Positions 8,270 through 61,640 of a stretch of 64,000 nucleotides of DNA are shown here, one piece after another. A model generated the notes under the pieces. It saw only the letters and a list, made by a program, of their open reading frames with translations. It did no database searches and was not told the origin of the DNA. Position 1 is the stretch's first letter; each line of letters begins with the position of its first letter. The stretch is taken from the NCBI GenBank assembly GCA_947462335.1, contig OX381721.1, positions 6,448,001-6,512,000 on the forward strand, written 5' to 3'. This DNA comes from Harmothoe impar (Eukaryota; Annelida; Polychaeta; Phyllodocida; Polynoidae). Position numbers and translations under genes: made by a program.

Positions 8270-8622
8270 GATAATGACGGACTCCAAATCAGCACTGAAG
8301 ACACTGCCGATTTTATAAATAATTTCTTTTGTGAAGTTGGTCCCAAACTGGCTGAATATCAGAATAAAGAGTGGACCTTTGAAGGTGAACTATGTGATAC
8401 GGACATGCCTGATATTGTCATATCTGAGGAAGAAGTTATCGCTGTGACAAAAAGAACTAAATATTAACAAATCCTCATCTTTTGATTATATATCAACTAA
8501 GGTGTTTAGAGACTCAGTATTGACAGCCCTAAAAAGATTCACAAAAACTTTTAATTTGTCTTTGAGTAAGTCTAAGATCCCCTCTTCCTGGAAACAAGCT
8601 AAAGTCACCCCCCTTCTAGTAT
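8270..8622 (+). pseudogene. Decayed LINE ORF2 fragment (linker to start of reverse transcriptase)
   Basis: It encodes ISTEDTADFINNFFCEVG and then, after a stop and frameshift at about 8464, FDYISTKVFRDSVLTAL and IPSSWKQAKVTPL. The ADFINNFFCEVGPKLA block parallels CCDFINTFFAEVGQKLA in the intact ORF2 of this window, and the SSWKQAKVTPL block parallels PKDWKSATVVPIP, so this is the region just before RT motif 1. The sequences otherwise differ, so it belongs to another, older LINE lineage. Too short and broken to be functional. Confidence 0.75.
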
Positions 8623-11902: not shown

Positions 11903-12399
11903 TTTGGAATTTTCTTTTGCTTTTAGTCGATTTTTTCCCCCTCAAAAGTCCAATTTGATTTATAAGTGAGGTTATGAAAAAATATATACTTTTTAGGGGC
12001 TAAATACTATTAACTCTAAATACCGTGAAACACCCTATTTCTAGAATTCTTTTTCCCTTTAAGACCTACTTGTTTCTTTACAAGTAGAGGGTCATCGTAA
12101 TAAGGGCAGAATATCATGAATAATACTCAATAGAGCCAGGCAAAAGGTTCTTTAGGGGGGCCTAAACGCCAATTTGACTTATAAATGAGGTTTTCCAAAG
12201 GTTCAATGAATCTAGCTAGTTTTATGGTATGTTGTCATCTTTTTTACTTTAATATGGAGTCACTACAGTTGACCTTTAAGCAGGCAGTATCAAGTTGTCG
12301 CTAGATTTATTGAAACTACGAATGAAACTTCAAGGTCTCAGATAGGTAAATATTGGACTGGTAAACAGCAAACAAAATTTCACAAACCTAAAAAATGAC

Positions 12400-12539
12400 T
12401 ACCCAGTGGCGCCACCCCTAAAGTGTCAGCAGAACCAGCACAGCACCCGCTGCTGCCGTGTGTAGGCCTGGTTTGTGGTTTTCTACTCATGACGACAATT
12501 TGGACTGCAGCCGCTTTGCTGAGCCAATGATTATAAGAA
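12400..12539 (+). repeat. Dispersed repeat (TACCCAGTGGCGCCACC family), copy 1
   Basis: It contains TACCCAGTGGCGCCACC, GTCAGCAGAACCAGCACAGC, TGGTTTGTGGTTTTCTACTC and GACAATTTG. Well-conserved copies are at 29575-29720 (same strand) and 40451-40620 (opposite strand). I find no polymerase III boxes or tail. Confidence 0.75.
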
Positions 12540-22652: not shown

Positions 22653-23966
22653 ATGGCGGAGGCTATGGACCGTGACGCGTTGACCACTCTACTGGCTGAC
22701 CTGTCCAAGGAACCTAAGGTATTGCGTTCAAACACCGGGGAGGTGAGTGGAGCCAAAGTCGGCCAAGCTATCACCTATCTACTGAAGGAACAGGAGGCAG
22801 CGACTGAGTCGGTGGAATTTGCACATACAGCCATTGCCAGCATTAAGAAAGAAAAGGGTGAGCTGGAGACTGAAGTCAAAGCGCTGCGGGCCAGATTGAC
22901 ACACACCGAGAGACAGGTTCGTGTTAATACTCTGGACATAGAGGAGCTAGGGGTGACACTCGCTATACAGGACCAACAATCAAGGCGTAAGAATTTGATT
23001 ATTGAGGGCATGCCCTTTGTACAAGGTGAAAACACAGAAGAGGTATCATATAGTCTCTTAAAAAAAGTGGAAAAAGACTTGGACATGTATGAAATTGATT
23101 ACGCCTACAGGCAGGGCCCTCCCACCTCACCCAGAAGATCCATCATGGTAGTCTTCCTAAAAGCGTCAACTAGAGATAGGATAATGTCGAACAAGAAATC
23201 CTTACATGGCACTGAGCATGGAAGTGTGTATCTTAGTGAAGACACAAACCAGGTGATCAGGCGTCAGAAGGCTGAAATCTCGACGGTAGTAAAGCTGGCA
23301 GAAGGAGCGGGTCTGGAGGTGAAACAGAGAGGACGAGGGGTCCTGTTCAAAGGTAGATACTACCCACATACCAACCTGAAAGACCTACCTGAGCAGCTTC
23401 AACTTGCAAACGCAAGAACACTTGTTACAGATCACTACGTGGCATACAACTCCAATTTGGCGCCCCTTAGTAATTTCTTCCCCTGCAAGGTCGAATATGA
23501 GGGGTACACCTACAGCTCGGTGGAACAAGGTCTCTCACATAAAAAGGCTCTGTTTGCAAGGAAAAAAGAAAAAGCTGGTGAAATCATGGACTCATTCACG
23601 GCCATGAGAGCCATGAAGATAGCAAAGACCATCGACTCACCAGAGTGGCGAAACCATGATGAGAACTATCTAAAAGAACTCAACGTAGCCAAATACGTCC
23701 AGAATGAGGAGCTCAGGGAGATTCTGAGAGCTACTCAGACCAGGCTTCTACTAGAGACTACAGGATCGAGGCACTGGGGCATAGGTGCGGGTATTCAGAG
23801 CAAGGCTCTAGAAAAAGGCACATGGAGAGGAAAGAACAGGGGGGGGTACATACTCATGGAGGTGCGTAAGGACCTGTTTGGCATTGAAAACCCCGCAGCG
23901 AAAAAGCAGAACGCCCCCCCCCCCCACTCCCACTGCCCCTCAGCAGCAACCAGCCAGCCGAGATGA
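22653..23966 (+). CDS. LINE ORF1 protein: coiled coil, RRM-like module and NADAR domain
   Basis: The predicted RNA-binding ORF1p of the retrotransposon has 437 residues in this frame. The ATG has a strong context (A at -3, G at +4). Residues about 45-110 are heptad-like, Glu/Lys/Leu-rich (coiled coil). About 110-210 resembles the RRM of LINE-1-type ORF1p (RRKNLIIEGMP, AYRQGP, RRSIMVVFLKAST, VYLSEDTNQ). About 213-246 looks like the small C-terminal domain. Residues about 256-410 form a full-length NADAR domain: APLSNFFPCKV, YSSVEQGLSHKKALF, VAKYVQNEELREIL, HWGIGAG, GKNRGGYILMEVR. The family's Ser-Asn-Phe, Glu, Trp-Gly and Gly-x-Asn positions are all present. NADAR (YbiA/DUF1768) proteins act on ADP-ribose-linked or related N-glycosidic substrates; its role here is inference. 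The frame leaves the protein's natural path at a 12-C run (23914-23925), adding a short unrelated end. Confidence 0.88.
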   Translation: MAEAMDRDALTTLLADLSKEPKVLRSNTGEVSGAKVGQAITYLLKEQEAATESVEFAHTAIASIKKEKGELETEVKALRARLTHTERQVRVNTLDIEELGVTLAIQDQQSRRKNLIIEGMPFVQGENTEEVSYSLLKKVEKDLDMYEIDYAYRQGPPTSPRRSIMVVFLKASTRDRIMSNKKSLHGTEHGSVYLSEDTNQVIRRQKAEISTVVKLAEGAGLEVKQRGRGVLFKGRYYPHTNLKDLPEQLQLANARTLVTDHYVAYNSNLAPLSNFFPCKVEYEGYTYSSVEQGLSHKKALFARKKEKAGEIMDSFTAMRAMKIAKTIDSPEWRNHDENYLKELNVAKYVQNEELREILRATQTRLLLETTGSRHWGIGAGIQSKALEKGTWRGKNRGGYILMEVRKDLFGIENPAAKKQNAPPPHSHCPSAATSQPR

Positions 23967-24492
23967 TACAGAAGTTAAGACAGCAACACCACAGGTACCT
24001 GAGCAGCCTCCTGCTCCCACGACTGTAGCAGCAGCAGTGCAAGTAACAACTCCAACCACCAGCGTGCAGACCCCCGTCACTGATGCTTCTACCATCACCA
24101 CTGCCAAAAAGCAAGCACCCCTCCCACCCAGAACTGTACCACCGCAGGATGCGAGACTCGATGAGGACTTGATCAATATGATAGCAAAATCCGCTACATC
24201 GGCTTATGCACAAGCCGCTGCGGGTTATAGGTCGGGAGGGGGTATACCCTTCAAATTGACCTCCCTGTCTCCCCATGTCATCACCCCCCCAAGGACACAG
24301 ATTGCCAGTACCAGCTTAACTCAGAGCAGTAGCATTCAAACCTCCTCCAGGGCTGAAGATGGTGGCTCACACACCAAGGTGGTGAAAAAGATGAGCAAAG
24401 TCGATCCACACAAAAAGAGCAAAGACAGTAGCCACCAGTTGCAGGACAGAATTAAAGGTTTCTTATCCGGTAAAAAAACCCCTACTAAGTAA
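23926..24492 (+). pseudogene. C-terminal tail of ORF1 in a shifted frame
   Basis: Immediately after the C run, another frame stays open for nearly 190 codons. It encodes a Pro/Gln/Thr/Ser-rich linker followed by a basic end (KKMSKVDPHKKSKDSS and FLSGKKTPTK). It has no start of its own that makes sense, and its composition suits a disordered, nucleic-acid-binding tail. Moving from the ORF1 frame to this one requires loss of one base (or gain of two), exactly what a change in the homopolymer would give. I read it as the original ORF1 end, disconnected by a C-tract slip, an assembly error or, less likely, programmed frameshifting. The joined protein is not written here. Confidence 0.65.
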
Positions 24493-25042
24493 ATACATAC
24501 CATGCTACGCGCTATGGCTCTATACAATAGGTAGAATGTCTAGAACATATATATGTAAACACCGTACAATCAGGGAATAGGGTCAACATCCTGCTATGTA
24601 ATCATTAGATCTATAAATACCCATGTATATTATTAGAAGCGTACAGCGGGCAGTCCCCCAGAGCAAGTGCTGACCCAGTGCATGTAAACGATTACATAAC
24701 TGATCAGCTGAGAGCCAGACAGAGTGCCGTGTGGATGTATACTATATTTTCTCTCTATGAAAAGATGTCTTTTCCTGAAGGTCAATATAAGATAATATGT
24801 CAAAAAAAGTTATTTAACATGCAATTGTACACATATCACGTTTAATTTAATTTTTTTAATTGTCTTTCTAGTCTGATTTTTTCCCCTTTTTTAAATGCGA
24901 ACTTTGTGATATGCTGGGGCGCATTGCTTCTCTTTGCCTGCCATAGCCATGATACCGGGTAGTATAAGATTCGATCACCTACATAAATCACCCTCATTTC
25001 ACCTCACCAATATATACCCCAGACCTTGTCAGTCAATTCTCA
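24493..25042 (+). other. LINE inter-ORF spacer
   Basis: A 550-base AT-rich gap separates the ORF1 tail from ORF2, with no frame matching a known domain. Such spacing implies that ORF2 is translated by reinitiation or an internal mechanism rather than by overlap, as inferred from other bicistronic LINEs. Confidence 0.5.
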
Positions 25043-27883
25043 ATGGTATTTCTACATAACATATGTATAGCCAAAGGTCTCCTGTTTACTTGTATTAACG
25101 CTAGATCGGCATATCCTAAAAGGGTTAATATTAAAAAGTTTATTTCTCATACTGATATAACTGGTGTTGTCGAGTCATGGCTAAATCCTACTATTTCTGA
25201 TAACATGATGTCTCTACCAGGCTACCAATTCTTCCGGCTGGATAGATACCCAGTCTTAGACAAAACGGCAGGTGGTTTAATGCTATATATGAGGGACACA
25301 TATACTGCCACACTAGATGAGGCCTCAAGTTGTATAACCTCTGACTATGAGATATTGTGTGTAGATATTGAAATAGGTAAGATTAAATATAAAATATACG
25401 TTTGTTATAGACCACCTAAAAGGGATAAAAACAGTCTGCAGTCTTTATACAAGAAGTTAACAGAGTTAAAGTCAACTGTCACTAGAAACAGAAAAATCCT
25501 ATGTATAGGTGATTTTAATATCGACTTATTGTCGCGCAAAGATATTGAGGACTCTGAGGTTTCACAGTTCTGTACTAATAATGATATGTGCCAATTAATT
25601 AATGAAATAACTAGACCAGCCTCAGGTACCCTTCTAGATCATATATATATTAATGAACGCATACACAACGTATGTGAATTCGGTACTATTGATTACCATA
25701 TTGCAGATCACACGCCTGTTTTTATTCTTATTAAATGTGAACGCACTAAGATAAAGAAAAAAGTGGTCAAAGCGCGTTCCTACAAGAACTATGACATGCT
25801 TGCTTTTAAAAATATGTTACTTGACGTTAAATGGGATGACATTGTTATAATTGAAAATCCTGATGCCTTTTGGAACAAAGTGATATCTGTGATACGGGCA
25901 TGTCTTGATACAATATGCCCCATAAGAACCCTTGTTCTACCGGTATATACACCCGAGTGGTTAACACCAGCAATCATACAAGAAATGCAATACAGAGACA
26001 CATTATATAGGGATGCGAGGCGTACTAATGATGTGGATGACCGTCGTATTGCAGATTTCTATAGAAATAGGGTAGAAAGCCTAATTTATTATAGTAGAAA
26101 AGAAAAAATAGACACCTTATTATTAAATAGGAAAAATGATCCAGCCAAATTTTGGGAGGGGATAAGAAAACTGTTACCTGTTAAGACTAAGTCAACCTTT
26201 TTGAAACTAAAGAATGGCCTAACCAACCAGCCTGTACCTACAAATGAATGCTGTGATTTTATTAATACGTTCTTTGCTGAGGTGGGTCAGAAGCTTGCAG
26301 CGGTGCTGCCACCTATTGACTCACATACACATTATAGAAATCCAGCGAATGTTCCTCTGTACTCCACCGATCTGTTGCATCCATTAAGCTATATAGAAAC
26401 GATTAAGCTTATAAAATCCATTAAGGATAATAAGCCATCAAGTATTAAGCACATTAAGTCGTATGTATTAAAAGATGCCTTCCTAAGCATACCAGACATA
26501 ATCATGCAAATGTACAATAGATGTTTGAGCGCGTGTCACTTCCCGAAAGACTGGAAATCTGCAACGGTTGTTCCCATCCCCAAGAAAAGTAATTCATTAA
26601 ATGTAAGTGACTTGAGACCAATTAGTCTCCTCCCCCTCCCTGGTAAACTATATGAAAAAATTATATGCTCTAGATTACAAAAATATATGGAGACTCACGG
26701 ACTCCTCACAAAATTCCAACATGGATACAGATCTGGCCATTCGACCATTACAGCTATAACAGCACATCTTAATAATATAATAGAGAACATAATTAATAAT
26801 AAATCAACCCTATCTCTCTACCTGGACTATAAGAAAGCTTTTGATACCGTTTCCCACTCTATTCTATTAAAAAAACTTGCAGGTTTTGGTCTTAGCGAAA
26901 GGACATGTAGGTGGTTTAGTAGCTACCTGACTGATAGGACTCAATGTACGGTAGCAAATGACTGTGTCTCTTCCTTTAAGCATGTAACATATGGGGTACC
27001 ACAGGGTTCAGTCTGTGGTCCTGTATTATTCTCTATTTACATTAATTCTTTACCTGATATTGATAATTTTGACATAACTCTTTACGCAGATGATGCGGTC
27101 ATTTCTGTGCATTCTCCTGAGAAAATGCAATCATGCCTAAATGCACTAGCCGTATGGTGTAAGAGGAATAGCCTCACGGTTAATGAGAAAAAAACAAAGT
27201 GGATGTACTATAATAACTTTAGGAATTTAAATCCTGTTTTAACCCTTAATAATGTTATTTTAGAAAAAGTTGAATCGTTCCCTTACCTCGGTGTAACCCT
27301 TGATACTGGTCTTAAATTCTTGGAACATAGAAAAAATGTACTCGCTAATAGCCGACATAAGTTGAAACAATTGGGCAAAATTCGACATCACACAGACTGT
27401 GACACTGCTTTAACTATATACACTTCAATGGTACTACCCACTTTAGATTACGCTGATTTTATATGGGATAGGGAAAATAAAGGGGAATCTGAAGAAATAC
27501 AGGGCTTACAGAATAAGGGCTTACGTACAGTATATAAAGTTAAATTAGAAAAAAACCCGGCTATGAACACGATTCAGTTGCATAAAAAAAGTGAATGTGA
27601 TTGGCTTATTAGTAGAAGGGACAAACACTTATTGTATTATGCCTTTACACTGGCTCAGTGTGACCAATATTTGGATACGAGGTCTATTGCCACAAGGTTC
27701 CACCAAGGAAAAAGACTGAAGGTGCTAAGATCATTAAAGCCTATTGTTATAAGAAGCTGCATGTACAGAGCCATATCTAGGTGGAATAACCTCAAACCTA
27801 CGTACACCATGATTGAGACACTTTGGAAGTTTAAATTAGCTATTGAAAAGGACTATCCTAATTGTTTTATAAATGCTGTATAA
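25043..27883 (+). CDS. LINE ORF2: apurinic-type endonuclease plus reverse transcriptase
   Basis: An uninterrupted 946-residue frame. ORF2p nicks target DNA and reverse-transcribes the element's RNA there. The N-terminal endonuclease/exonuclease/phosphatase domain (about 13-230) shows INARS with Asn19, VVESWL with Glu44, CYRPP (121-125), GDFNID (156-161), LLDHIYI (197-203) and ADHTPV (221-226). A linker follows with CCDFINTFFAEVGQKLA (about 403-419). The RT domain (about 500-760) has LRPISLLP, LDYKKAFDTVSH with the first catalytic Asp near 595, GVPQGSVCGP (651-660) and the LYADDAV box with catalytic Asp683-684. The C-terminus ends in the FK-rich stretch common in CR1/L2-like proteins (SRWNNLK...FKLAIEKDY). 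No RNase H domain is seen. The first ATG sits about ten residues before the endonuclease fold, so the start fits. All catalytic motifs are intact. Confidence 0.95.
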   Translation: MVFLHNICIAKGLLFTCINARSAYPKRVNIKKFISHTDITGVVESWLNPTISDNMMSLPGYQFFRLDRYPVLDKTAGGLMLYMRDTYTATLDEASSCITSDYEILCVDIEIGKIKYKIYVCYRPPKRDKNSLQSLYKKLTELKSTVTRNRKILCIGDFNIDLLSRKDIEDSEVSQFCTNNDMCQLINEITRPASGTLLDHIYINERIHNVCEFGTIDYHIADHTPVFILIKCERTKIKKKVVKARSYKNYDMLAFKNMLLDVKWDDIVIIENPDAFWNKVISVIRACLDTICPIRTLVLPVYTPEWLTPAIIQEMQYRDTLYRDARRTNDVDDRRIADFYRNRVESLIYYSRKEKIDTLLLNRKNDPAKFWEGIRKLLPVKTKSTFLKLKNGLTNQPVPTNECCDFINTFFAEVGQKLAAVLPPIDSHTHYRNPANVPLYSTDLLHPLSYIETIKLIKSIKDNKPSSIKHIKSYVLKDAFLSIPDIIMQMYNRCLSACHFPKDWKSATVVPIPKKSNSLNVSDLRPISLLPLPGKLYEKIICSRLQKYMETHGLLTKFQHGYRSGHSTITAITAHLNNIIENIINNKSTLSLYLDYKKAFDTVSHSILLKKLAGFGLSERTCRWFSSYLTDRTQCTVANDCVSSFKHVTYGVPQGSVCGPVLFSIYINSLPDIDNFDITLYADDAVISVHSPEKMQSCLNALAVWCKRNSLTVNEKKTKWMYYNNFRNLNPVLTLNNVILEKVESFPYLGVTLDTGLKFLEHRKNVLANSRHKLKQLGKIRHHTDCDTALTIYTSMVLPTLDYADFIWDRENKGESEEIQGLQNKGLRTVYKVKLEKNPAMNTIQLHKKSECDWLISRRDKHLLYYAFTLAQCDQYLDTRSIATRFHQGKRLKVLRSLKPIVIRSCMYRAISRWNNLKPTYTMIETLWKFKLAIEKDYPNCFINAV

Positions 27884-27930: not shown

Positions 27931-28680
27931 CCACTTTGTCTACCTACTATTATGTGATTGTATAGTTTTTTACAATACTTTCAAGAATTGTTGGCATATG
28001 GAATAGCATTGGAGTCATAGCATATCATATATAAGACCGCTAAAAGAAAAATGTAACAGTCAGGGGTGCTAGCGGCAGAAGGGCAATGCGCCCGAGCTAG
28101 TTTTTGGCCTACAAAGCCGATTAGATCCAAATAAATATACTTCAAAAAAAAAAGACTTTTGGAGTGCATGCTATAATTCCAACCATTGAATTTTAATACA
28201 CTGTATAAGGCTATACCTGTGTCATTTGACCCCTTTAATTACATTGTAGTGCCCATGATTGATATTTTATTGTATCCTATCCTCCAAATATGATATTGTA
28301 ATGATATTTTGAACATATTTAGATGCAAATTTTTTAAAAAAAGGAAAAATTCGGACCAAGCCACTTAAAATAGTTATATATAAAGAGGTAATTACTTTTG
28401 TGGTCTGACCACAGGAGGGGTCAAACCCACAGTACTGGAGAGGGGATGCAATCTGTGTTAAGGACATGTTTTGCCGTAGAAGCCTTTGTATAAGAAATAC
28501 CCACTGGTTGTACCATCATGTATAATGCTTTCAAGATGAGTGGGTGCTTAGCATCAAACCTAGCCGTAGAAGGCTTTGCAGAAATAAGTTCCAGTGTTTG
28601 CGTGCCTTTGTAGCAAGACAAACAGCAGCAATGGCAGTGATCTATAACATGTACATATATTTTCCGCTTTATATATTACT
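27931..28680. other. Intergenic DNA, no recognised feature
   Basis: AT-rich sequence with no gene, repeat family or RNA that I can identify. Frames on the minus strand are short and lack domain signals. Confidence 0.5.
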
Positions 28681-29574: not shown

Positions 29575-29720
29575 TATGACACTGACCATTTAATTACCGA
29601 TAGTGCTACCCAGTGGCGCCACCTCTCAGGTGTCAGCAGAACCAGCACAGCACCAGCTGCTGCTGTGCGTGGCCCTGGTTTGTGGTTTTCTACTCATGTC
29701 GACAATTTGAGCTGCAGTCA
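29575..29720 (+). repeat. Dispersed repeat (TACCCAGTGGCGCCACC family), copy 2
   Basis: It matches 12400-12539 through GCTACCCAGTGGCGCCACC, GTCAGCAGAACCAGCACAGC and TGGTTTGTGGTTTTCTACTC. It shares an extra left block (TTAATTACC then GTGCTACCC) with the inverted copy at 40451-40620, which helps place the element's left end. Confidence 0.75.
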
Positions 29721-39010: not shown

Positions 39011-40450
39011 TGCCCCAGACTGAGCTACCTTCAGAATAAGCTCGTTCTACTGTGCAGCACATATATAAAGCTGAATTTAAGAATCGACATGAATCTTTTT
39101 TTCTTTTTTTTAGTGTAACTTTTTTTCTGTAGTTATCAGACTGGGCTCCTTATATATCATGGTGGTGCCCATATCCTTCTGGCTCCAAACAAAGGTCATG
39201 TTTTAGGCCAACTACCAAAGTGCAAGCCACAATACATCTGAGGTATGCCAGCTAGTCTGACGATAACATCCTGCCCGACGAAAGTCTGTCCAAATTGAAT
39301 CGCCATGTTACCCCCCTCTTCATGACATTTTCGACAGAGTGACCGATTTTTGCTCTGTCTCACCGTGTTGGGAGCAGAAAATGGTGATATTGTCTGTTGT
39401 TTTGTTACTTTTTTTTTGTCACGGAATGCTATAAACGACTGCGTTTTTTGCTCGGTCGGATGATTTTTTTTCAACCAATGGCAGTGGAATACCCGCTTTA
39501 GCTACTCTACTGTCACCTTAAATAATAGTAAAGAAAATACTTTCGGGACTAATTACACCTGTAATACCAATAATGTTGCTCTATAATCCAGGTTAATTGA
39601 AAATGTGAACATAATGTGAAAATATCAATCTAGATATGTATAACTAAATTGTGGAGGAATCAAGTAGCACTCTCCAATGCATAGGTTCTACTAACACGTT
39701 GTCATGTGTAAAGGTTGGATGTCACAGCTACTGAGATTCAGAATACAAGGTCAACATCCCAGAATAGTCAGGCAGTATAATGTCAGAAATATGTCACTGA
39801 ACTAACATGTCTCTCTAGAGGCCAATGCAGCAAGAAAAGGCGACTTTAAAAAAAAGGTGTTGATAAGTTTTAAGAAACATGATAAGAACATTTCTGAAGC
39901 TCTACTGACAAATACAGAAATATAAATTCAAAATCCTGCATTCAAATATATACTATTTGAAAGATAATTGTTCAGTGAATCTTCTGGTAGAAACTCTTTG
40001 CAAACATATTGCAGACAGTATTATGAGGGTTCTGCTAAAACCAATGTAAACACAACTTTATTGTGAAAACAGTCACCCTTTCTTGTTGCATGGGTCTATA
40101 GCAGTCAGTCAATAGCACTAAGTCACCTCAGCACAAAACCCCACCCAGGACAATTAATGTGTCTCTCTGTTTTCTATATTAACCCTTTAAAGACCATAGA
40201 CTGCTTAAATATGGTATGCTCTTTGTCATCAGAAATTGTTAATTTGCAGGCATAATTTCAACCGTGCTTCGTGGAGGCAATGCATCTGCCAGTCAGGCTT
40301 GAATAGATGGGTGACTGATTAAGGATGCATAATTTCATAATTCATAACGAAAAATTAGATAGATGACATTAACTTACTTTGCGTACCCTAAAGGTTTAAT
40401 GGTTCCCTCTCTTTCTAACAAAACACCAGGACCACGCTAACAGCAGCTTT
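39011..40450. other. Intergenic DNA, no supported gene
   Basis: A minus-strand frame at 39196-39474 (92 codons, Lys/Gln-rich with CRKCHEEGG) starts after a T/A-run and has no recognised domain, so I leave it uncalled. The rest is AT-rich low-copy sequence. Confidence 0.4.
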
Positions 40451-40620
40451 TCTTATAATCATTGATTCAGCAAAGCGGCTGCAGCTCAAACTGTCGTCAT
40501 GAGTAGAAAACCACAAACCAGGCCTACACACAGCAGCAGCTGGTGCTGTGCTGGTTCTGCTGACAGCTGAGAGGTGGCGCCACTGGGTAGCACCATGGGT
40601 AATTAATAGGTCATTGTCAT
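40451..40620 (-). repeat. Dispersed repeat (TACCCAGTGGCGCCACC family), copy 3, inverted
   Basis: On the minus strand it reads GGTGCTACCCAGTGGCGCCA, GTCAGCAGAACCAGCACAGC, TGGTTTGTGGTTTTCTACTC and GCCGCTTTGCTGAATCAATG. This is the longest of the three copies and shows both outer blocks. Confidence 0.75.
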
Positions 40621-56268: not shown

Positions 56269-56984
56269 CAGCTGCTCTGTAAGCTACATGTGGCCTGCTA
56301 TAGTATAACACTCATGCTGCCCAGTGAGCTGCCGGGTGAGCTGCTCTATGAGCTACATGTGGCCTGCTACAGTATAACCCTCATGCTGCCCAGTGAGCTG
56401 CTCTGTAAGCTACATGTGGCCTGCTATAGTATAACACTCATGCTGCCCGGTGAGCGGCTCTGTATGAGCTACATGTGGCCTGCTATAGTATAACACTCAT
56501 GCTGCCCTGTAAGCTGCTCTATATGAGCTACATGTGGCCTGCTACAGTATAACACTCACGCTGCCCTGTGAGCTGCTCTATGAGCTACATGTGGCCTTCT
56601 ACAGTATAACACTCATGCTGCCCTGTGAGCTGCTCTGTAAGCTAAATGTGGCCTGCTACAGTATAACACTCATGCTGCCTAGTGAGCTGCTCTATGAGCT
56701 ACGTGTGGCCTGCTACAGTATGACACTCATGCTGCCCTATGAGCTGCTCTGAATGAGCTACATGTGGCCTGCTATAGTATAACACTCATGCTGCCCTGTA
56801 AGCTGCTCTATATGAGCTACATGTGGCCTGCTACAGTATAACACTCACGCTGCCCTGTGAGCTGCTCTATGAGCTACATGTGGCCTTCTACAGTATAACA
56901 CTCATGCTGCCTGGTGAGCTGGTCTGTAAGCTACATGTGGCCCGCTACAGTATAACACTCATGCTGCCTGGTGAGCTGCTGTAT

Positions 56985-57151
56985 ACTGTGAAAGAACTTA
57001 TATTCACAGGTGTAAATTTTAGCTGAGGTGGCAAAAAAGATTAATGCGCGGATATTTATCCCATACTGTAGCATATAAGAATTTCGCGGATTTTTCATTT
57101 CCGTGAATATAGCGAAAATATATACCCAGCGAAATAAAGTATGACCACAGT
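56985..57151. mobile_element. 167-bp MITE (ACTGTGAAAG) inside the satellite, copy 2
   Basis: It differs from 55688-55854 at only a few positions and lies in the same position relative to the satellite unit. Confidence 0.75.
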
Positions 57152-57546
57152 CAGCTACATGTGGCCTGCTACAGTATGACACCCATGCTGCCCCGTGAGC
57201 TGCTCTCTATAAGCTACATGTGGCCTGCTACAGTATAACACTCATGCTGCCCAGTGAGCTGCTCTGTATGAGCTACATGTGGCCTGCTATAGTATAACAC
57301 TCATGCTGCACAGTGAGCTGCTCTATAAGCTACATGTGGCCTGCTATAGTATGGCACTCATGCTGCCTGGTGAGCTGCTCTGTATGAGCTACATGTGACC
57401 TACTATTGTATAACACTCATGCTGCCCAGTGAGCTGCTCTATGAGCTACATGTGGCCTGCTACAGTATAACACTCATGCTGCCCAGTCAGCTGCTCTATG
57501 AGCTACATGTGGCCTGCTACAGTATAACACTCATGCTGCCCAGTGA

Positions 57547-57861
57547 GGCCAAATTTAAAAAAATAGATGTGTTTCAGTTAACCCGACCCTACCTTGCAAA
57601 ACAGGGCCGACCCTAGACATTTTTATGCAATTTTGAAAAGAAATATTTATATTTTGGGCACATTTTGGGGCTATTTAAGGGTCAATCGGATAGTTCACGA
57701 GTCGAGGTGGTCATCAGCGAGGGGGCATTGTAGTTTGTGAGTCGATTTCTGGGTACTTTCCAGGCTAAAGTAAAAAAGAAAATTAAAAAGAAAAAAATCC
57801 GACCTACCTACCCTAGATTTTCAGACCATGTAACCTGAAACACACCTTTTTTTTTTTGGCC
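57547..57861. mobile_element. PIF/Harbinger-type MITE, copy 2, with TGA duplication inside a satellite unit
   Basis: The ends are GGCCAAATTTAAAAAA and CCTGAAACACACCT, T-run, GGCC. TGA flanks both sides (57544-57546 and 57862-57864), and joining the flanks restores the normal satellite text CAGTGAGCTG. It is an inverted relative of 20699-20993. The interior carries GAGTCGAGGTGG and GTAGTTTGTGAGTCGA. Confidence 0.9.
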
Positions 57862-60431: not shown

Positions 60432-61640
60432 ACTCTGTGAGCTGCTCTGTGAGCTGCTCTGTGAGCTGATCTGTGAGCTGCTCTGTGAGCTGAGCTGTGA
60501 GCTGCTCTGTGAGCCGCTCCAGAGCCGCTGTGTAAGCTGCTCTGTGAGCTGCTCTGTGAGCTGCTCTGTGAGCTGCTCTGTGAGCTGCTGTGTGAGCTGC
60601 TGTGTGGGTTGCTGTGAGCTGCTGTGTGAGCTGCTCTTGATGAGCTGCTGTGTAAGCTGCTGTGTGAGCTGCTGTGTGAGCTGCTGTGTGAGCTGCTGTG
60701 TGAGCTGCTGTGTGAGCTGCTGTGTGAGCTGCTGTGTGAGCTGCTGTGTGAGCTGCTGTGTGAGCTGCTGTGTGAGCTGCTGTGTGAGCTGCTGTGTGAG
60801 CTGCTCTGTGAGCTGCTCTGTGAACTGCTCTGTGAGCTGCTCTGTGAGCTGTTCTAAGACCTGTTCCGTGAGCTGCTCTGTGTGCTGCTCTATGCGCTGC
60901 TCTGTGAGCTGCTCTTTGTGCTGCTCTATGAGCTGCTCTGTGTGCTGCTCTTGACGAATTGCTGTGTGTGCTGCTGTGTGTGCTGCTCTATGAGCTGCTG
61001 TGTGAGCTGCTGTGTGAGCTGCTGTGTGAGTTGCTCTGTGAGCTGCTGTGTGAGCTGTTGTGTGAGCTGCTGTGTGAGCTGCTGTGTGTGCTGCTCTTTG
61101 AGCTGCTCTGTGAGCTGCTCTGTGAGCTGCTCTATGAGCTGCTCTGTGAGCTGCTCTGTGAGCTGCTCTAAGTGAGCTGCTGTGTGAGCTGCTGTGTGAG
61201 TTGCTGTGAGCTGCTGTGTGAGCTGCTCTTGATGAGCTGCTGTGTAAGCTGCTGTGTGAGCTGCTGTGTGAGCTGCTGTGTGAGCTGCTGTGTGAGCTGC
61301 TCTGTGAGCTGTTCTAAGACCTGTTCTGTGAGCTGCTCTGTGTGCTGCTCTGTGAGCTGCTCTGTGAGCTGGTCTGTGAGTTGCTCTGTGTGCTGCTCTG
61401 TGTGCTGCTCTGTGAGCTGCTCTGTGAGCTGCTCTCTGTGCTGCTCTGTGTGCTGCTCTGTGTGCTGCTCTGTGTGCTGCTCTGTGAGCTGCTCTGTGAG
61501 CTGCTCTCTGTGCTGCTCTCTGTGCTGCTCTGTGTGCTGCTCTGTGAGCTGCTCTGTGAGCTGCTCTATGTACTACTCTGTGAGCTGCTCTGTGTGCTGC
61601 TCTGTGAGCTGCTATGTGAGCTGCTCCGGTTGAGTTGCTC
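60432..61640 (+). repeat. 12-bp minisatellite (GAGCTGCTSTGT)n, about 100 units
   Basis: Uninterrupted repetition of GAGCTGCTGTGT and GAGCTGCTCTGT with variants (GTGCTGCTCTGT, AAGACCTGTTCT). Because the unit is four codons, all frames that avoid stops stay open for long stretches: SCSV and CELL repeats on the plus strand, AAHR repeats for about 249 codons on the minus strand. These are consequences of the repeat. A larger duplicated block (GTGAGTTGCTGTGAGCTG, then CTTGATGAGCTGC) recurs at about 60600-60650 and 61195-61240. Confidence 0.95.

Follow-up and report, generated by a model that had tools for sequence, protein, structure and literature searches.

A NADAR domain fused to the L1-type ORF1 protein of a LINE in the polychaete Harmothoe impar, and a possible role for it

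NADAR domains have been met in retrotransposons before. They are reported in the ORF1 proteins of several Tx1 families of long interspersed nuclear elements (LINEs) of the oyster Crassostrea gigas and in Pol of Ectocarpus Gypsy elements, the latter a capture of a YbiA-family NADAR (PMC12477816; this and the other papers cited were available in part, and what is drawn from them extends to those parts). I know of no further link between NADAR and retrotransposons among the literature matches listed, and wider notice is possible, since subscription papers, supplements and Repbase could not be searched. This study concerns a LINE in the polychaete Harmothoe impar, found within 64,000 nucleotides of contig OX381721.1 (assembly GCA_947462335.1, positions 6,448,001 to 6,512,000 of the forward strand; hereafter the window, meaning this whole stretch), whose ORF1 protein ends in a NADAR domain. 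A preliminary description of the same DNA, made from its letters alone, had suspected that NADAR might already have been noticed near retroelements, and the oyster and Ectocarpus elements prove that suspicion right.

The element resembles the C. gigas Tx1 LINEs in carrying a NADAR/YbiA domain in ORF1; its ORF2 has 946 amino acids and a GVPQGSxxGPxLF box, whereas the oyster elements are known here by description only (PMC12477816). Human LINE-1 ORF1p (2yko/2ykp; type II, or L1-type) has no NADAR, unlike the ORF1 described here, and the available part of a survey of CR1, L2 and Jockey elements lists CCHC, RRM, C-terminal (CTD), coiled-coil, PHD, esterase and zinc finger/leucine zipper domains in ORF1, not NADAR (PMC4120745). 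Among other NADARs, those that act as antitoxins in bacteria (PMC11543638, PMC11125620), including the DarT1-linked ones, and that of Phytophthora nicotianae (8bau) stand outside any transposon protein, unlike the domain in the window. Animal NADAR domains that act on a ribonucleoprotein (RNP) occur in nematode SNA-3, a host trans-splicing factor with three NADARs and no transposon protein (PMC9303266). The NADARs of Roniviridae, said to be associated with RNA repair, also sit on a replicating RNA element, in this case a virus rather than a retrotransposon (PMC11287256).

ORF1 and its parts are as follows.

22653..23966, + strand: ORF1, 437 codons, ATG to stop (from the list of open reading frames and the relatives P0001-P0008)
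22749..22985, + strand: coiled coil, one long predicted helix, residues 33-111 (structure prediction)
22986..23252, + strand: RRM-like domain, residues about 112-200
23253..23417, + strand: CTD, residues about 201-255, abutting the start of NADAR (the fold match to 2ykp_A covers residues 67-255)
23418..23882, + strand: NADAR (YbiA-type) domain, residues 256-410

The NADAR domain was assigned from family models and from solved structures. Pfam NADAR (PF08719) matches residues 270-408 along model positions 11-162 of 163, with an E-value of 2e-24 and a score of 87.1 bits against a cutoff of 35.1. NCBIfam TIGR02464, the riboflavin-intermediate N-glycosidase, lies just above its own cutoff (76.2 bits against 73.7). 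When ORF1 was compared with the sequences of solved structures, two matches emerged, E. coli YbiA 2b3w (2.6e-8) and NADAR 8bau (9.4e-7), the latter named by the fold search as the P. nicotianae NADAR with ADP-ribose. A match over the length of the family model, together with a predicted YbiA-like fold, places the domain in the NADAR superfamily. The preliminary description had located NADAR at 23421-23883 (residues 257-410), which takes in the Pfam match, and had suggested checking it by a profile search of ORF1 and by structure prediction of the region; the former gave the Pfam match above and the latter a NADAR fold. Its claim that every NADAR block is present is slightly too strong: at site 372 this ORF1 has Ser, whereas each of 45 sampled cellular and viral NADARs has Asp (see below).

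The N-terminal part of ORF1 has the coiled coil, single RRM and CTD of a type II (L1-type) ORF1p, as judged from the predicted structure, and in the fold search the coiled coil from residue 67 onward aligns with the human L1 ORF1p trimer. Generic RRM folds that ranked below NADAR and L1 ORF1p in that search were not used. The structure prediction likewise agrees with the earlier claim that a coiled coil and an RRM-like module share one frame with NADAR. I rejected the possibility that a host NADAR gene merely adjoins a LINE, because a single uninterrupted frame joins CTD and NADAR, and relatives repeat the fusion.

The relatives come from two protein searches, each with 7997 candidates scored. 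The search with ORF1 itself gave ten proteins, in eight of which (P0001-P0008) NADAR is preceded by an N-terminal region with a coiled coil and an RRM-like module, with the reservation that P0005 stops short inside NADAR and the gene model of P0008 lacks one NADAR helix. The other two, P0009 and P0010, are 281 amino acids long and lack that region. Searching again with nine aligned fusions gave nine proteins: six already found, a fragment with NADAR (P0011) and two ORF1-like proteins without it. The profile of the nine fusions finds L1 ORF1p at 2.3e-11 and 8bau at 1.3e-29, and among 14 proteins aligned, 12 carry a Pfam NADAR match. Most of the fusions are about 25% identical to the window ORF1; P0001 is 46% identical over 91% of it. 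Because the same order of parts recurs in eight of ten hits, a chance or one-off fusion, the accident that the preliminary description had named as its refutation, can be excluded for the fusion as such, and the sequences support a fusion of ORF1 with NADAR that recurs in other proteins.

One further protein, P0012 (570 amino acids), is ORF1-like: after a coiled coil and an RRM-like region it carries a UPF0029 domain (Pfam 9.7e-22), which I take to be Impact-type. By its sequence, it is an instance of another C-terminal module on an ORF1-like protein.

P0001 and P0014, a relative of the window's ORF2, each have a longest contig of 5515 bases, from which I infer that they lie on the same contig; if so, ORF1-NADAR and ORF2 have not been separated since the divergence of the two elements. 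Comparison of the window with P0001 shows 77/155 residues kept in NADAR, 42/85 in the RRM, 31/55 in the CTD and 25/75 in the coil. By these counts NADAR is conserved to about the same degree as the RNA-binding core.

The origin of the LINE NADARs was approached with a tree of 54 rows, 9 from LINEs and 45 others, none of the latter an animal cellular NADAR. The window and P0001 pair with support of 100/99, and the nine LINE rows need two label changes. A tree forcing the LINE rows (eight, without the truncated P0005) into one clade has a log-likelihood lower by 8.3, with a p-AU of 0.083, so that on these sequences a single origin is not rejected. In a search for DNA of further copies, a scan of viral contigs with ORF1 gave no match.

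Whether the domain could be an enzyme turns on a few residues. In P. nicotianae NADAR, E43, K50 and E125 correspond to E88, K95 and D171 of E. coli C7, and substituting those three residues impairs guanine de-ADP-ribosylation and abolishes cell rescue; in vitro, E88A impairs the reaction only slightly and E88Q fully (PMC11543638). Since a second conserved Glu of C7, E173, is dispensable there, my assignment of the acid position rests on the structural equivalence stated in that paper. Residues were mapped by hand, from the alignment of ORF1 with 8bau shifted by two to the published numbers and from the spacing of seven between E and K.

23523..23525, + strand: E291, equivalent to P. nicotianae E43 and C7 E88; in 9/9 LINE rows and 45/45 others
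23544..23546, + strand: K298, equivalent to K50 and K95, seven residues after E291; in 9/9 LINE rows and 45/45 others
23754..23756, + strand: E368, equivalent to P. nicotianae E125, the Glu marking the YbiA subfamily; in 8/8 LINE rows with a letter there and 44/45 others
23766..23768, + strand: S372, at the position of an Asp (P. nicotianae D130) in sampled cellular and viral NADARs; Asp in 45/45 others and 6/8 LINE rows with a letter
23775..23777, + strand: W375, equivalent to W133; in 6/8 LINE rows with a letter and 44/45 others

The 45 rows from outside LINEs comprise 8 viral contigs, 35 bacterial or archaeal loci, P0009 and P0010, and include the near-copies L001/L045, L042/P0010 and L005/L008. 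Eight of the 51 fetched loci, being partial matches (L009, L010, L035, L038, L046, L048, L049, L051), were left out of both tree and survey, and P0008 was left out of the nine LINE rows, as its gene model lacks the K298 helix, which the near-identical fragment P0011 has. The loci were fetched by patterns containing an EQ or a K-F/Y-x-Q motif, so the conservation that these loci show at E291, Q292, K347 and Q350 is in part a product of the selection; the patterns do not include K298, E368 or the Asp.

By sequence, then, the domain has the counterparts of C7 E88, K95 and the acid D171 that are expected of an active guanine-ADP-ribose hydrolase, in the form of E291, K298 and E368. It has Glu, not Asp or His, at the position of P. 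nicotianae E125, as the YbiA subfamily does, where C7 has Asp. The position of S372 is variable among the LINEs: Ser in the window copy, Asn in P0007 and the usual Asp in P0001, as in 8bau.

The reading I favour, tentatively and at somewhat less than an even chance, is that the NADAR of this LINE family is an ADP-ribosyl-guanine hydrolase that would remove ADP-ribose from the RNA of the element itself or from its first cDNA strand. In L1, ORF1p binds the RNA of the element and packages it (PMC5940361). If the present ORF1p trimerises like human L1 ORF1p, it would array three NADARs along the bound RNA. Guanines of the element RNA or nascent cDNA might receive ADP-ribose from a host or environmental ADP-ribosyltransferase, and its removal would let reverse transcription or translation proceed, making the domain a counter-defence or repair module. 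Such a role, already suggested in the preliminary description, fits, by analogy, the published chemistry of NADARs (PMC11833690, PMC11543638, PMC11125620): they alone among hydrolase families were found to undo the ADP-ribosylation of guanosine in RNA (PMC11833690), and they reverse it on DNA as well (PMC11543638, PMC11125620). Guanine-specific DNA ADP-ribosyltransferases, of the pierisin-like kind, are known from animals, namely butterflies and six edible clams (PMC11209040).

Several observations weigh against this proposal. The Asp expected three residues before the Trp of the WGxG block, present in all 45 sampled NADARs, is Ser372 here, and for that reason I do not file the window copy as a proven active enzyme. 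As I read the D-x-x-W spacing, site 372 is one of three residues mutated together in the second NADAR of SNA-3, chosen because of their importance in YbiA activity (PMC9303266). Judging from the alignment by hand, the window protein does not have the residues that contact the adenine side in P. nicotianae NADAR (Y84, D86, R93). The second protein search, over its 7997 scored candidates, gave no further full-length fusion. E. coli YbiA and a phage NADAR hydrolyse guanosine-ADP-ribose in vitro yet give no rescue from DarT1 (PMC11125620), so the chemistry of a NADAR does not give its physiological role. Finally, ADP-ribosylation of retrotransposon nucleic acid is not reported in the available parts of the literature matches listed (best 12 of 76). 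Since the Asp of every sampled NADAR is Ser in this copy, and its C-terminal tail is out of frame, the activity of this exact copy is uncertain.

The change of that Asp to Ser in the window and to Asn in P0007 would also suit a domain that serves mainly for binding or assembly of the ORF1p RNP, recognising caps, modified RNA or proteins that partner with it, and catalysing little or nothing; the first NADAR of SNA-3, which lacks key residues, offers a parallel (PMC9303266). I consider this credible but somewhat unlikely. A pure binder would be expected to lose E291, K298 and E368 at about 25% identity to the window, and the first two remain in 9/9 LINE rows and the third in all eight with a letter.

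It is improbable that the domain acts on a small nucleotide, such as riboflavin intermediates or derivatives of NAD or ADP-ribose, instead of on polymeric RNA or DNA. Although the NCBIfam model above cutoff is that of the riboflavin-intermediate N-glycosidase, NADAR is tethered to an RNA-binding-type module in eight ORF1-type hits, an arrangement with no plain gain for a soluble metabolite. Most animals are not known to make riboflavin. The N-glycosidase activity of YbiA (PMC9303266) speaks for such a substrate.

It is quite improbable that NADAR was captured as a passenger, contributes nothing to transposition and is now decaying in this lineage. Ser372 and the frame change after ORF1 would be expected of it, and at strongly conserved columns the window departs at 6/25, compared with 2/25 in P0003, 1/25 in P0004, 0/25 in P0006 and 1/14 in P0005. 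Departures nonetheless number 8/25 in P0001, 10/26 in P0007, 6/26 in P0002 and 4/26 in P0011, proteins in which E291, K298 and E368 stay. I rejected decay of this copy as such, its ORF2 being no more decayed than its three nearest relatives (private changes at 48/449 against 40/441, 56/457 and 58/459).

It is very improbable that NADAR shields the host, in its cells or germ line, from toxins of the environment that ADP-ribosylate guanine, and so makes the LINE useful to it, as the antitoxin role of bacterial NADARs and the pierisin-like enzymes of animals might suggest. ORF1p is generally regarded as acting mainly on the RNA that encodes it, and no partner gene was seen beside the element (the scan: 3/218 outside open frames, no Pfam family above cutoff).

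The rest of the element lies downstream of ORF1.

23914..23925, + strand: run of 12 C, near the parting of the ORF1 and tail frames
23878..24492, + strand: open frame, +1 relative to ORF1, P/T-rich tail like the continuation of P0001; no Pfam family
24493..25042, + strand: spacer of 550 bases from the tail frame to ORF2
25043..27883, + strand: ORF2, 946 codons, endonuclease and reverse transcriptase
26576..27301, + strand: reverse transcriptase domain, ORF2 residues 512-753, with GVPQGSVCGPVLF and YADD
28144..28153, + strand: run of ten A, probable 3' end of the element

P0001 (571 amino acids) continues past NADAR into a proline-rich tail; a like tail in the window sits in the next frame, and ORF1 ends soon after the run of C. 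The parting of the frames at that run may reflect a sequencing error, a real change or slippage. ORF2 has the endonuclease and reverse transcriptase of a LINE, or non-LTR (long terminal repeat) retrotransposon: Pfam finds Exo_endo_phos_2 (1.3e-6) and RVT_1 (3e-40), with Exo_endo_phos (0.0005) below its cutoff. Its best relative among those listed is P0014, at 61% over 100%. No exact repeat longer than 9 bp was found between the two flanks of the element, and tblastn (1e-3) found no second copy of ORF1 or ORF2 in the window.

As to the group of LINEs to which the element belongs, the matches of ORF2 to 8c8j (46.2 bits) and 8gh6 (45.8 bits), taken here to be human L1 ORF2p and Bombyx R2, respectively, are equally distant. 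The reverse transcriptase box reads GVPQGSVCGPVLF in the window, GTRQGCPLSPLLF in 8c8j and GVRQGDPLSPILF in 8gh6. Of 166 ORF2 relatives, 120 were listed, and most of these have the form GVPQGSxxGPxLF, presumably a mark of the Jockey superfamily (CR1, L2, Jockey and related groups); 20 of the 120 fell outside the search expression. Since this box is unlike those of 8c8j and 8gh6, the element probably belongs to the Jockey superfamily. An L1-type ORF1 beside such an ORF2 is not odd in itself, as type II ORF1s occur in CR1 and L2 elements (PMC4120745). A second LINE superfamily with NADAR, besides the oyster Tx1, is thus likely but unproven.

Elsewhere in the window, positions 8282-8615 hold the degraded remains of an ORF2 from a different LINE (tblastn with P0111, 5.9e-17). 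Large minisatellites occupy 60433-61626 and 56270-57547 (a 12-bp unit in about 99 copies and a 57-bp unit with longer periods), and the long open frames in them are probably repeat artefacts. Repeats of about 142 bp with 92% identity, possibly a SINE (short interspersed nuclear element) or MITE (miniature inverted-repeat transposable element), lie at 40450-40620, 12399-12539 and 29576-29717. An open frame of 297 codons at 42-932, rich in Ser, Pro and Lys, is possibly a host exon and has no Pfam family above cutoff. Scanning the window for tRNAs and Rfam families yielded no hits.

What NADARs do in eukaryotes, including animals, is described as unclear (PMC11125620), and the available parts of the NADAR and ADP-ribosylation literature cited describe no endogenous target that is ADP-ribosylated on guanine in animal cells. 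A NADAR fixed to the RNA-binding protein of a retrotransposon points to a concrete substrate, the element's RNA or cDNA. One might go further and suppose that animal cells ADP-ribosylate guanines of retrotransposon RNA or cDNA as an unrecognised defence, which LINEs of at least two superfamilies answer with an eraser on their RNA-coating protein; I think this unlikely. Should the proposed role fail, the fusion still shows that ORF1 proteins acquire further modules, as they have the esterase and PHD domains (PMC4120745). Should it be true, ADP-ribosylation of nucleic acid would become a candidate layer of the conflict between hosts and their transposons.
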